64,000 nucleotides of DNA. Source: an uncultured bacterium. GTDB lineage: Bacteria > Verrucomicrobiota > Kiritimatiellia > CAIKKV01 > CAIJXV01. Shown in pieces: positions 16,352 to 20,073 of this stretch. A program made the position numbers and the translations under genes. The stretch's first letter is position 1. Every line of letters begins with the position of its first letter. The notes below the pieces were generated by a model. That model was not told where the DNA came from, made no database searches, and was given only the letters and a program-made list of their open reading frames with translations. The stretch covers positions 1-64,000 of the forward strand of contig CAIJXV010000101.1 in the NCBI GenBank assembly GCA_903824675.1, given 5' to 3'.

Positions 16352-17323
16352 TTACTCCATTTCCTGGTGACGGAACAAGACGATCCCGACGGCGATCAGG
16401 CCGGCGAGGTAAAAAATGGCATAGAGGGAGACCTGTTCGATCACGTCGCCGGAGAGATGTCCGCCTGCTGCCAACGCATCACTTTGCCAGAAGACCTGCC
16501 AATGGGGGGCCCATCCGCGCAAGAGGGGGAAGGTCCCCAAAAGATAATCCGTTGCCAGCCCCAGCAGAAAGAAGATGGCGGCTCCGGCCAGGACGGCGGC
16601 TGTTTTAAGGCGGACGGCGAGGGCGAGACAGAGGGTGCCGAAGAGGAGCAGGGCTTCGGCGATCAGGAGCTGAGCCGGAATCAGGCGCCATTCTATGGCC
16701 TGCCCGTAAGGTACGGGAGTGCTGTCACGGCTGAAAGCGGCCAGGATCAGGACCCCGGCGCTGAGGGTGATAACCAGGTGGATCATTGCGCTGGAGGCAA
16801 AGGATCGCCGGCTGATGAAGTTGTCGAGGGCTGCTCCGGCGAGCGCCAGGACCACGGCGGCCGGGGCGATGAGCAGGGCCAGGGTGTCCACTTCGTAATT
16901 CAAGGGCGAAACCCGTTGGGCGAGCAAACCGGCCGGTATCGCCACGAGGACGTAAAGCGCCAGCACGGCGCCGATGCCGACGACTTTGCCTCCATAGAAT
17001 AATTCCCGCCCGATATTTTTACTGAGCAGGGTGGAGAGGATACCGGTTTCAATCTCACGGCGCAGGGAGGAGCCGGCGGCATAGCCGGCGATGAGGACAC
17101 CGAAGCCGAATTGGAATGCCAGGGCGCTGTCACGGGCCAGACGTCCCTGCTCGCCCAATTCATGGGCGATGGCAATGGGGACGACCAGGATGCAGGCGAC
17201 CGCGGTCAGGGAGAGGAGGAGGAAGATCGGGTGCCGCAGGGTTTCCAATGCGGTCAACCGGGCGATGGTCAGGATCTGGACAAAGGGGCGCAGGGCGCTG
17301 GACGGCGAGGCGGGAACTTCCAT
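16352..17323 (-). CDS. ABC-2 type transporter permease
   Basis: A 323-residue permease starting MEVPASPSSALRPF, with about six to eight hydrophobic helices (for example LLLSLTAVACILVVPIAI and VLALYVLVAIPAGLLA). It contains the short segment ETLRHPIFLLL and the ETGILSTLLSKNIGRELFYGGK block typical of ABC-2 permeases, where the loop contacts the ATPase. It is the first gene of the three-gene exporter operon. The frame is open upstream to 17533, but that extension is translated from the tandem repeat, so the Met at 17323 is chosen. Confidence 0.85.
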   Translation of the reverse strand: MEVPASPSSALRPFVQILTIARLTALETLRHPIFLLLSLTAVACILVVPIAIAHELGEQGRLARDSALAFQFGFGVLIAGYAAGSSLRREIETGILSTLLSKNIGRELFYGGKVVGIGAVLALYVLVAIPAGLLAQRVSPLNYEVDTLALLIAPAAVVLALAGAALDNFISRRSFASSAMIHLVITLSAGVLILAAFSRDSTPVPYGQAIEWRLIPAQLLIAEALLLFGTLCLALAVRLKTAAVLAGAAIFFLLGLATDYLLGTFPLLRGWAPHWQVFWQSDALAAGGHLSGDVIEQVSLYAIFYLAGLIAVGIVLFRHQEME

Positions 17324-17373
17324 AAGAGAGCATTTTTCCAAAACCGCCGTGAATGTCAATCCTGATGACCGGG

Positions 17374-17798
17374 CACGAGCCACGAATCTGCGATTCGGTG
17401 TGAATTCGCCTATTTCAATGATAAACCGCCCAGGTGGGGCTACGCCCACAACCCGATTCCCCATTGTTGTAGGCCGGGCCTCTGCGCCCGGCGTCCGCGA
17501 ATCCAGCCCGCTCCATCGCCCGACGCCCGCCACGGAGGGCGGGCCGACATCGATTGAAAACGGTTGGTGTAAAGTCGCCTATTTCAATGATAAACCGCCC
17601 AGGTGGGGCTACGCCCACAACCCGATTCCCCATTGTTGTAGGCCGGGCCTCTGCGCCCGGTGTCCGCGAAACCAGCCTGCTCCATCGCCCGACGCCCGCC
17701 ACGGAGGGCGGGCCGACATCGATTGAAAACTGGTGGTGTGAACGCCCTTTAGGCGGTTTCTGTGCACCGAATCGCAGATGCGCCAGTCACGAGCCACG
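17374..17798. mobile_element. MITE-like element with inverted ends and flanking direct repeats
   Basis: A perfect 15-base inverted repeat (17386-17400 against 17765-17779), with weaker matching for about ten further bases inward, encloses a tandem duplication. An 11-base direct repeat, cacgagccacg, lies just outside at 17374-17384 and 17788-17798, as expected for a target duplication. There is no transposase gene inside, so it would depend on one supplied elsewhere. It fills the space between the ABC operon and the phosphatase gene. Confidence 0.5.
17407..17744. repeat. two tandem copies of a ~169-bp repeat
   Basis: The segment 17407-17575 is repeated almost exactly at 17576-17744 (offset 169 bases). 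Only scattered differences are seen, for example gcgtccgcgaatcc against gtgtccgcgaaacc. Each unit contains REP-like G+C-rich palindromes, such as gccgggc with gcccggc, and gcccgcc with ggcgggc. Confidence 0.9.
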
Positions 17799-17838: not shown

Positions 17839-18873
17839 TCAATGGGCTTGAACCGGGTCTGCCGGGGTTGACCGGGTGATGCGCAGGTCTTGTCGTGTAT
17901 TGATGGCAGACCCGGGGATGGGGCCCAAATTGAGCAGGGAGAGCATCAGATTGCCGACTTCGCTGTTTCGGATGGGCTGGAGTGGATCCGTATAGGCCGG
18001 GTGGTTGGTCCCGGGATTCTGGCGGACACCCGTGTTCCAGTCGTAAAGATCACCCGGGGTTACGCCCGCGCCCCAAACCAGGAAGGGGATTGTGTAATTG
18101 AGGGGTTCATCGGCGTCGTTGTGATTTCGTCCCTTCCCGCCGTGGTCGGCTGTAACAATCAGCGTGGTTTTTCCTTTGAGCAGGGAGTTGGTTGCAATTA
18201 AGTCCATGATCTGACCTAAACAGGTATCGATTGTAATCAGGGCGTTGTTGTAAGCCTCGTTCCCCCATCCGGACGTGTGGCCGGCCGAATCGGGTTCGGC
18301 GAAATGAATCAGGGATGCCTGACAGGGTTGGGTACTCATGGTGGTGATGAAGTTGCGGGTGAGGGCGGGGGATGCTAGTTCATACACGACCACATCCAAC
18401 TTGTTGGGTCCATTGTTTTCGCCGGTCATGTCAGGCGCGCCGTGCCCGGCGTCATACGAGATTCGGAATAGAGAGAACTTGGTCTTGGTTGCCCAGAGCC
18501 CGGTGCGCAGGCTATGGTCGTGTGCGACATCAAAGACGCCGGCCACATAGGCGCCGCGATTGGAATGGAGGGTCATGTCGGCGGCCGGATCCGTATTTTT
18601 CACCCAGTGGTGTCCGACGGGTCCGAGAATCGGGCGGCTTGTGATCATGCTGGTGTGGTTGGGGAGGGTGACGGTGATATCGAAATCGGTGCGGGCATTG
18701 AGGGTATAAGCCGCTTCCATTTCCAGTTGCTTGAAATGAGGGAGTTGGTCGGCTTGGATGAGCGCCTGCAGGTATTGCGAGCCGAGGGCATCCACACTGA
18801 TGGCGATGACATAGTCCGCACTATGGGCCCAATTGGCAAAGAGGATCAAAACCAGGGAGAGCCAACGGGACAT
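17839..18873 (-). CDS. Secreted alkaline-phosphatase-superfamily protein (type I phosphodiesterase/nucleotide pyrophosphatase-like)
   Basis: A 344-residue protein with a clear signal peptide (MSRWLSLVLILFANWAHSA), so it acts in the periplasm or outside. The metal-binding and nucleophile motifs of the alkaline phosphatase superfamily are present: ISVDALGS (metal Asp), LPNHTSMITSR (nucleophile Thr), FAEPDSAGHTSGWG (metal Asp and His) and TADHGGKGRNH (metal Asp and His). This fits phosphodiesterases or phosphatases such as nucleotide pyrophosphatases; the substrate is unknown. A strong ribosome binding site (GGAAGGA) precedes the ATG at 18873. The longer open frame to 19125 has no support. It is a single gene, divergent from rlmN. 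Confidence 0.82.
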   Translation of the reverse strand: MSRWLSLVLILFANWAHSADYVIAISVDALGSQYLQALIQADQLPHFKQLEMEAAYTLNARTDFDITVTLPNHTSMITSRPILGPVGHHWVKNTDPAADMTLHSNRGAYVAGVFDVAHDHSLRTGLWATKTKFSLFRISYDAGHGAPDMTGENNGPNKLDVVVYELASPALTRNFITTMSTQPCQASLIHFAEPDSAGHTSGWGNEAYNNALITIDTCLGQIMDLIATNSLLKGKTTLIVTADHGGKGRNHNDADEPLNYTIPFLVWGAGVTPGDLYDWNTGVRQNPGTNHPAYTDPLQPIRNSEVGNLMLSLLNLGPIPGSAINTRQDLRITRSTPADPVQAH

Positions 18874-19011
18874 GTGAATTCCTTCCGTGAGAGGTGGACA
18901 CAGGATTGGACGGGGGCACCTGATCCCGGACCGTTTTACCTTATTCCGGAATGCCAGCCAATCAAAAATAAACGTGTTTGTTCGGGCGAAAGAGGATAAG
19001 GTGCGCCTCGA

Positions 19012-20073
19012 ATGGCGGAGGCAACCGAACTCATGAACGAAGCGACGGGTCTGACATTTGAGGAACTCGAGCACTGGATGGGGGAGCATCAAATTCCCCG
19101 ATACCGGGCCCGGCAGGTCTGGCATTGGATGTATCGGAAGACGGTCCGGGAATGGGACGCGATGCGGAATTTATCCGCCGAGTTGCGAGCCCAGTTGGCC
19201 GGTGAATTCCGGTTGCGGCCGGCTGAATGTCGTGCCCTGGAGGGGATCAGCGGGGAGACCCGCAAGATGCTGGTGGGGTTGGCCGACGGGGAGGCGGTAG
19301 AGGCGGTGTTGATCCCCGCCGCCGACCGGGTCACGGTTTGTGTTTCCAGCCAGGTTGGATGCCGGTTCCGGTGCGCTTTTTGCGCCAGCGGTCAGATGGG
19401 GGTTTCCCGCAATTTAACGCCGGGCGAGATGGTGGGGGAAGTGTTGCTGGCCATCGATCAGATCGGCGCCCACCCGGATAACGTGGTCTTCATGGGAATG
19501 GGCGAGCCCCTAGATAATTACGATGCGTTATTGAAAGCGTTACGGATTCTGAATGATGGAGAGGGATTGGCGATCGGCGCGCGCCGGATGACGATCAGCA
19601 CCTGTGGCTGGGTTCCCGGGATTGAGCGGCTGAAAGCGGAGGGGCTCCAGGTCGAACTCTCCGTCTCCCTGCATGCGCCGGATGATGATTTACGGTCGCG
19701 GTTGATGCCGGTCAACCGCCGGTATCCGTTGGCCTCCCTGATGGCGGCCTGTGGCGATTACAGCCGTGTCACGGGCCGGATCGTAACCTTTGAATACACT
19801 TTGATTCGCGGGTTGAATGACCGTCCCGACCAGGCGCAAGCGGTGGTGCGGTGGGTGCGCTCGATCGGAGGGCGGGTGAATTTGATTCCCTTGAGTCCAG
19901 TTCCTGAATTTTCAGGGGAAGCGCCGACCCCGGCGGCGGTGGAGGCCTTTCGCACCGTTTTGGAGCGGGGCGGAATCAATACGACGGTGCGGAGGTCGAA
20001 AGGATCCGAAATCAGCGCCGCTTGCGGGCAGTTGCGGCGACGCGTTTGCGGGGCGCGGGGGGACGCGCCTTAG
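19012..20073 (+). CDS. rlmN: Dual-specificity RNA methyltransferase RlmN
   Basis: A 353-residue radical SAM enzyme that methylates C2 of A2503 in 23S rRNA and A37 of tRNAs. The cluster motif CRFRCAFC (CxxxCxxC) binds the 4Fe-4S cluster. FMGMGEPLDNYDA, TISTCGWVPGI, VSLHAPDDDLRSRLMPVN and the C-terminal AACGQL, with the catalytic Cys that forms the methyl-adduct intermediate, are all present. A second start at 19033 (MNEATG) has the better ribosome binding site (GGCGGAGG). Its last 62 bases overlap the end of the convergent GH57 gene, and the catalytic Cys codon falls inside that overlap. Confidence 0.93.
   Translation: MAEATELMNEATGLTFEELEHWMGEHQIPRYRARQVWHWMYRKTVREWDAMRNLSAELRAQLAGEFRLRPAECRALEGISGETRKMLVGLADGEAVEAVLIPAADRVTVCVSSQVGCRFRCAFCASGQMGVSRNLTPGEMVGEVLLAIDQIGAHPDNVVFMGMGEPLDNYDALLKALRILNDGEGLAIGARRMTISTCGWVPGIERLKAEGLQVELSVSLHAPDDDLRSRLMPVNRRYPLASLMAACGDYSRVTGRIVTFEYTLIRGLNDRPDQAQAVVRWVRSIGGRVNLIPLSPVPEFSGEAPTPAAVEAFRTVLERGGINTTVRRSKGSEISAACGQLRRRVCGARGDAP

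Follow-up and report, generated by a model that had tools for sequence, protein, structure and literature searches.

Bacterial MITEs with inner repeats are known, and so are tandem REP pairs. The BOX elements of Streptococcus pneumoniae are MITE-like: they have terminal repeats and target duplications, and their tandem boxB modules vary in number (PMC3049150). BrickBuilt of Porphyromonas gingivalis is described as a MITE whose inner tandem repeat has 23-nt units and whose ends are most similar to those of IS5-family elements (PMC4596501). REPINs consist of two head-to-head hairpins, and their tandem clusters include flanking DNA (PMC3116915); in A. variabilis and H. neapolitanus, longer palindromes are reported to contain REP dimers (PMC3733652). 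The ISKra4 group of insertion sequences (p-MULT 4) has ends of 18–39 bp with a conserved terminal C and duplications of 8 or 9 bp, and is reported to insert upstream of sigma-A promoters, 13–17 nt from the -35 box, with promoters targeted on both sides by elements that have near-perfect ends (PMC3942029).

The window, which is the whole 64,000-nucleotide stretch of DNA analysed here, contains at 17384–17785 an element that is very probably a MITE whose ends match those of ISKra4-like insertion sequences from the same bacterial class, mobilised in trans, directed to promoters and carrying a REP-pair cargo duplicated in tandem. Acting at the GGGC...GCCC ends, a transposase supplied in trans would insert the element, create a 9-bp target duplication and favour sites a set distance upstream of a sigma-70 promoter. 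The cargo, which comprises a head-to-head pair of GTAG-type REP hairpins and the flanking arms, was duplicated in tandem, before or after insertion, probably via exchange between short edge matches (GGTGTRAA..CGCC). The combination, the exchange of cargo (same ends with different hairpins, same hairpins in two MITE families) and the promoter spacing were not found in print, and in the open-licence literature, judged from titles and the starts of abstracts, no paper was recognised as describing this MITE family.

Table 1. Features of the element and of its surroundings, with positions in the window
Feature	Position	Strand	Remarks
ABC-2 permease-like protein, next gene	16352..17323	-	two weak Pfam matches, both under cut-off; 16352-17320 scanned
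sigma-70-like promoter	17332..17359	-	TTGACA-16-AAAAAT, 10/12; reads away from the element, towards the ABC-2 permease-like gene
left 9-bp target-site duplication	17372..17380	.	GGCACGAGC; putative, in family register
11-base direct repeat, left copy	17374..17384	.	partner 17788-17798
left terminal inverted repeat	17384..17400	+	GAATCTGCGATTCGGTG; family consensus GGGCGCATCTGCGATTCGGTGCA; outer GGGC decayed here
tandem unit 1, 169 nt	17397..17565	+	repeat detection
hairpin A, unit 1	17469..17495	+	GTAG-tagged, REP-like, 7-bp stem
hairpin B, unit 1	17522..17548	-	head-to-head with A, 7-bp stem
tandem unit 2, 169 nt	17566..17734	+	7 mismatches to unit 1
duplication junction GGTGTAAAGTCGCC	17566..17579	+	short matching stretches at 17397 (GGTGTGAATTCGCC) and 17735 (GGTGTGAACGCCC)
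hairpin A, unit 2	17638..17664	+	pattern match
hairpin B, unit 2	17691..17717	-	pattern match
right terminal inverted repeat	17765..17785	-	outer end GCCA replaces GCCC
right 9-bp target-site duplication	17786..17794	.	GTCACGAGC; putative, in family register; 8/9 equal to left
phosphodiesterase / nucleotide pyrophosphatase family, neighbour gene	17839..19053	-	family assignment

The window copy and its family

There are 398 bp between the inverted ends of the window copy. The arms, at 17383–17400 and 17765–17782, are 18 nt long and 94% complementary, and within them is the perfect 15-base run ATCTGCGATTCGGTG that the sequence-only reading had described. Neither an inverted match of 17/18 or better nor an identical 11-mer was seen in 400,000 random position pairs each, placed 300–450 bases apart in the same window. 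The 11-base direct repeat CACGAGCCACG, also part of that reading, is present and is not due to chance, but the target duplication of the family is 9 bp, and the 11-base repeat is not in clean register with it. The left tip of the window copy is decayed, with CAC where the family has GGGC; if this tip has lost one base, the copy would fit the 9-bp family register at 8/9 bases, as read from the letters and not as the result of a tool. That the element has no coding content agrees with the Pfam search, in which the three long frames across it matched no family at E ≤ 0.01.

By the sequence-only reading, a lack of the ends elsewhere together with the lack of an empty site would have spoken against a MITE, and this is not what was seen. 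In the genome of the window (4.24 Mb in 124 contigs, 96% complete), the 17-base end has 79 matches with two mismatches or fewer, at 55 loci, and the reversed control pattern has none. BLAST of the same genome gave at least 61 matches at E ≤ 0.01, a lower bound with 40 of the 93 first-look candidates scored, and loci with family ends and BLAST places together number 57. These locus counts take in a few doubtful single ends, one locus of a second MITE family (L006) and an interrupted copy (L075) counted twice, so that a family size of about 50 is an estimate. Seventeen of the 27 family copies examined in this genome measure 218–241 bp, and the end consensus from aligned copies is GGGCGCATCTGCGATTCGGTGCA.

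When counted from the outer end GGGC/GCCC, the identity of the flanks is best at length 9 (0.61 in 33 copies from the own genome, 0.69 in 35 from other genomes), with 0.22–0.39 for the other lengths tried in this register. A length of 7 with one more base counted to the end scores equally, which means that the edge of the duplication rests on the conserved GGGC/GCCC too. Over 9 bp, the 33 own copies have a mean of 5.45/9 matches, versus 2.36 in 2000 permutations (highest 3.24), and 39 copies from other genomes have 5.95/9, versus 2.51 when permuted (highest 3.28). These counts cover the scored copies (33 own; 35 or 39 other) and omit those that lie close to the end of a contig, have poorer ends or have flanks that occur more than once.

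Unfilled sites were found for two copies in relatives. The 58 relatives listed for the window genome include none of the same genus or family, and no unfilled site is recorded for the window copy; seven joined flank pairs were searched against seven genomes of one genus, and the pairs from copies L121 and L125 crossed the join. L121, in genome G254, sits in a dispersed repeat, of which the unfilled copies contain the target once. Of eight such loci, G254 has six and G284 two; they are 82–89% identical over 74–102 columns, and the 9-base target is exact in one, 8/9 in six and 7/9 in one. For L125 there is an unfilled counterpart, L240, in the congener G463, with 80% identity over 122 columns and gaps at the target.

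Among named genomes the exact 19-base end is present in 43 stretches, and 40 of these stretches carry the label Spartobacteria, Kiritimatiellae, Verrucomicrobia or Lentisphaerae. At one mismatch or fewer it is found in 40 of 387 genomes of the phylum, and seven genomes, the own genome included, have seven or more matches; the control pattern has one match in each of two genomes in this search. Most of the matches across the 387 genomes are single or double and may be due to chance. Among viral contigs, 11 stretches carry the 17-base end and no pair has both ends at three mismatches or fewer.

The family is short and non-coding, its ends are shared by many dispersed copies and with an autonomous element, and its target duplication is of fixed length. 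The identification of the window element as a MITE is supported by the ends at 55 loci, the 9-bp duplications against permuted controls, the unfilled sites for two related copies and the transposase gene that the same ends flank in another genome.

Transposase between the same ends, and promoter spacing

In G006, a genome of the same order, a 353-aa frame adjoins one family end (L169), with its stop codon one base from the repeat, and this end matches the MITE consensus at 22/23. The best NCBIfam match of the predicted transposase is ISKra4 (E 3.4e-44), at 151.6 bits against a curated cut-off of 205, with ISLre2 at 75.1 and ISH6 at 31 bits; Pfam UPF0236 is matched above the cut-off. Relatives of this protein at E ≤ 1e-20 are present in 25 of 288 genomes of the class. 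The 1730-bp element L196 has both ends at 22/23 to the MITE consensus and a gene 71% identical to the L169 transposase, and L196 and L169 are from genomes of the same class and the same order, respectively, as the window genome. The similarity of the ends drops with identity to L169, from 20–22/23 at 71% to 18 at 59%, 15–16 at 53–55% and 14 at 48%, with the exception of one element of 43% identity that has 18/23. An exact 9-bp duplication flanks L199 (1805 bp) and an 8-bp duplication flanks L197; L196 has no matching 9-bp duplication, and none was seen by eye for L203 and L207. L175 is a pair of ends 1.07 kb apart, the far end with 6 mismatches, in which no transposase-like frame was recognised by eye.

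Protein and profile searches of the own genome found no ISKra4-like transposase. Insertion sequences are often missed by draft assemblies, so that this absence is not proof that the genome has none. We infer that the family was mobilised in trans. The window element might instead be what remains of a full ISKra4-like insertion sequence after the loss of its gene, the leftover then being duplicated, and shortened forms do exist, as is seen in L203, where 903 bp with part of a transposase (query residues 183–349) lie between the same ends. The interior hairpins, however, occur elsewhere in the own genome too, and BLAST with an own interior (L012) gave no match to L169 or L196 among the matches listed, which makes such an origin quite improbable.

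The MITE family shares with the ISKra4 group, as that group is described in PMC3942029, the type of ends (18–39 bp, conserved terminal C), the 9-bp duplication and the position upstream of promoters, and differs from it in having no transposase gene. Outward-reading sigma-70-like promoters with at least 8/12 consensus bases were sought in a crude scan, the distance being taken from the inverted-repeat end to the start of the -35 box. This box starts 24–29 nt outside one end, never on both sides, in 26 of 69 paired elements (13/32 own, 13/37 other), compared with 0–2 per group in nine control windows, and there is no promoter-like site at this distance in the other 43. By single bases there are 9 cases at 26 nt, 16 at 27 nt and 2 at 28 nt, then 4 at 16 nt and 3 at 20 nt, with 0–2 at all others. 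Among 189 distinct flanks, 29 have the promoter, versus a shuffle mean of 2.2 (highest 6) and an average of 0.7% in control windows; this count overlaps in data with that of the 69 elements and is not independent of it, and both leave out copies by the same three criteria as the duplication counts. Of 13 own elements, 10 have the promoter on the side of hairpin B, which is too small a sample to rest on.

The published ISKra4 spacing is not the one that is found, since 13–17 nt occurs only in 5/32 own and 2/37 other elements. The main spacing of the MITE family is 26–28 nt as against 13–17 nt, with a minor group at 14–17 nt; both are measured from the inverted-repeat end, although the promoter model differs from that described in PMC3942029. 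The main spacing is about one helical turn beyond the published one and is seen separately in own and other genomes, which suggests an ISKra4 branch that reads promoters with a different geometry. In the nine ISKra4-type loci scanned, the spacing is 27 nt for L199 and L200, 13 for L203, 15 for L221, 20–21 for L202 and 43 for L196, and three have no such site.

A near-fixed distance from a promoter-like site in 26 of 69 elements could also be seen if copies near promoters had been kept by selection as regulatory elements, and not placed there by the transposase. That the insertion sequences L199 and L200 have the same 27-nt spacing, and that the ISKra4 group is described as directing its insertion to promoters (PMC3942029), make this unlikely, and placement by the transposase is preferred. 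In the window copy, the promoter-like site is 20–25 nt from the left end, depending on the junction base chosen, and is near, yet outside, the 26–28 nt peak. Its -10 box ends only 9 bases ahead of the likely start codon, which leaves either the promoter or the gene start uncertain.

Hairpin cargo and its carriers

The interior of the element is made up of two 27-base hairpins, A with a GTAG tag and B with GTCG instead, which are head-to-head and have a 7-bp stem each. At three mismatches or fewer, the hairpin pattern has 140 matches in the own genome and its control none. GTAG-tagged hairpins in inverted pairs, by which REPINs and GTAG REP dimers are recognised, are present here, with the GTCG of hairpin B as a departure. 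The head-to-head hairpins, the tandem units with flanking DNA and the GTAG tag are shared with REPINs (PMC3116915) and GTAG REPs (PMC3733652) as those sources describe them; in contrast, the palindrome around the hairpins here is a transposon end that has a 9-bp duplication, such ends also flank a transposase gene, and no RAYT link was found.

An interior of this kind could be a REPIN/BIME array that owes its movement to a RAYT transposase, with the inverted ends as passive neighbouring sequence. The own genome has two Y1_Tnp (RAYT-like) genes (L001, L002), hairpin A has the GTAG tag and 7-bp stem, hairpin pairs are also found outside the family, and tandem REPIN clusters have been published (PMC3116915). 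There is, however, no A or B hairpin within 1.9 and 2.5 kb around the two Y1_Tnp genes, and a RAYT origin of the cargo was rejected on this ground. The 9-bp duplication is moreover at the GGGC ends and not at the hairpins, and other interiors are found between the same ends elsewhere, so that movement by RAYT is a very unlikely account of the array, and carriage by the transposon ends remains the preferred one.

The same hairpin pair is present in a second MITE family of the own genome (L091, L093, L095-L097, L099, L103, L107 and others), of which the copies are mostly 332–335 bp with ends like GTGGATTGTAAAGTTAAATGCCGC. Its duplication is about 14–16 bp by eye (15/16 in L107), with an ungapped mean of only 0.46 for ten copies at 16 bases. 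L107 has two units, separated by an arm of the first family. The A/B pair is also found in further contexts (L092, L094, L104-L106).

Between the first-family ends, 43 scored foreign interiors form 10 clusters, and L142, which holds two cargos and bridges one of the clusters, brings this to 11 kinds by eye. The own genome adds two kinds, the A/B kind and that of L081/L082. The clustering left out L130_3904_4110, a wrong pairing, as well as copies that fall under the three criteria given for the duplication counts. Since different interiors lie between the same ends, and two MITE families share the same hairpins, we conclude that ends and cargo are exchangeable.

REP hairpins are usually attributed to RAYT enzymes. 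Here they are carried by DDE-type transposon ends, and the same ends around different interiors, with the same hairpins in two MITE families, would suggest a second route for the spread of REPs, one that is directly testable. It is possible, as a tentative view, that one set of ends is a shared chassis that takes up the hairpin pair abundant in its host and is placed about one helical turn further from promoters than its known relatives, so that REP-type hairpins would be brought to positions upstream of genes and afterwards multiplied there in tandem.

Folding of 47 interiors gave a median z of -3.1, with 25 below -3 and five above 0, so that strong folding is true of about half. The window interior has a z of -2.1, a single-unit own interior -1.6 and the 97-nt core -0.85. 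Rfam gave one match, far under the gathering score.

At L075:1916-3837 of the own genome (C13:4415-6336), an IS110-family gene, above the NCBIfam cut-off, splits hairpin B of a MITE copy into two halves. The gene was considered as the autonomous partner of the family and rejected, as the flanking ends and hairpin parts show that it was inserted into this hairpin; the IS110 element appears to have targeted a REP-like hairpin. In L004, L019, L034, L063 and L078 the loop of hairpin B has an extra stretch around GCATAGTATC (or GCATAGGATC), which is also found at the right edge of the L075 IS110 insertion. At L041:3050-3325, also in the own genome, the hairpins are in the order B A A B, inverted and not tandem, adjoining a family end.

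Tandem units

The 169-base unit is present twice, as had been reported, and the pair is the sole tandem array reported in the window. The two units have 162/169 bases equal and resemble each other more than they resemble any further copy compared (best 91.2%). Two to three units, some incomplete, are present in 10 of 51 family entries: L003 (the window), L004, L007, L008, L009, L022, L032, L035, L037 and L076. This tally excludes L006, a 52nd entry of the second family, and L021 and L023 show the same two elements; the arrays of L032 and L037 are cut by contig ends.

There are six kinds of junction by eye among the spacers of these arrays. The 89-nt spacer is that of the window copy and is also found in L006/L107 of the second family; the others are of 69–86 nt (L008, L009 twice, L022, L032), 76–79 nt (L004, L007), 38 nt (L076), 56 nt including an arm of the second family (L035) and 155 nt (L037, and also L094 outside the family). 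The several kinds of junction and numbers of units indicate that tandem growth recurred from short matching edges, with the joining step itself being inferred. For the 89-nt junction, which occurs in both MITE families, either exchange between the families or two like events may be responsible.

The window genome is a repeat-rich draft of 124 contigs with several copies at contig ends, and the double unit might be an artefact of its assembly. That the two units differ at 7 positions, and that other arrays have different junctions and unit numbers, make an artefact highly improbable, and a true tandem duplication is the reading kept here.

A duplicated interior had been called unusual for a MITE, and this holds only in part, given the ten family entries with 2–3 units and the published parallels in BOX, BrickBuilt and REPINs. 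BOX elements (PMC3049150), compared by architecture only, likewise have tandem inner modules, and here the module is a REP hairpin pair that is also present in a second MITE family. The 23-nt units and IS5-like ends described for BrickBuilt (PMC4596501) contrast with the 169-nt hairpin-bearing units and ISKra4-like ends found here. In L094 and L037 the 155-nt spacer holds further repeated sequence (GGTCGAATTCGAAAAGC...), perhaps a third carrier.
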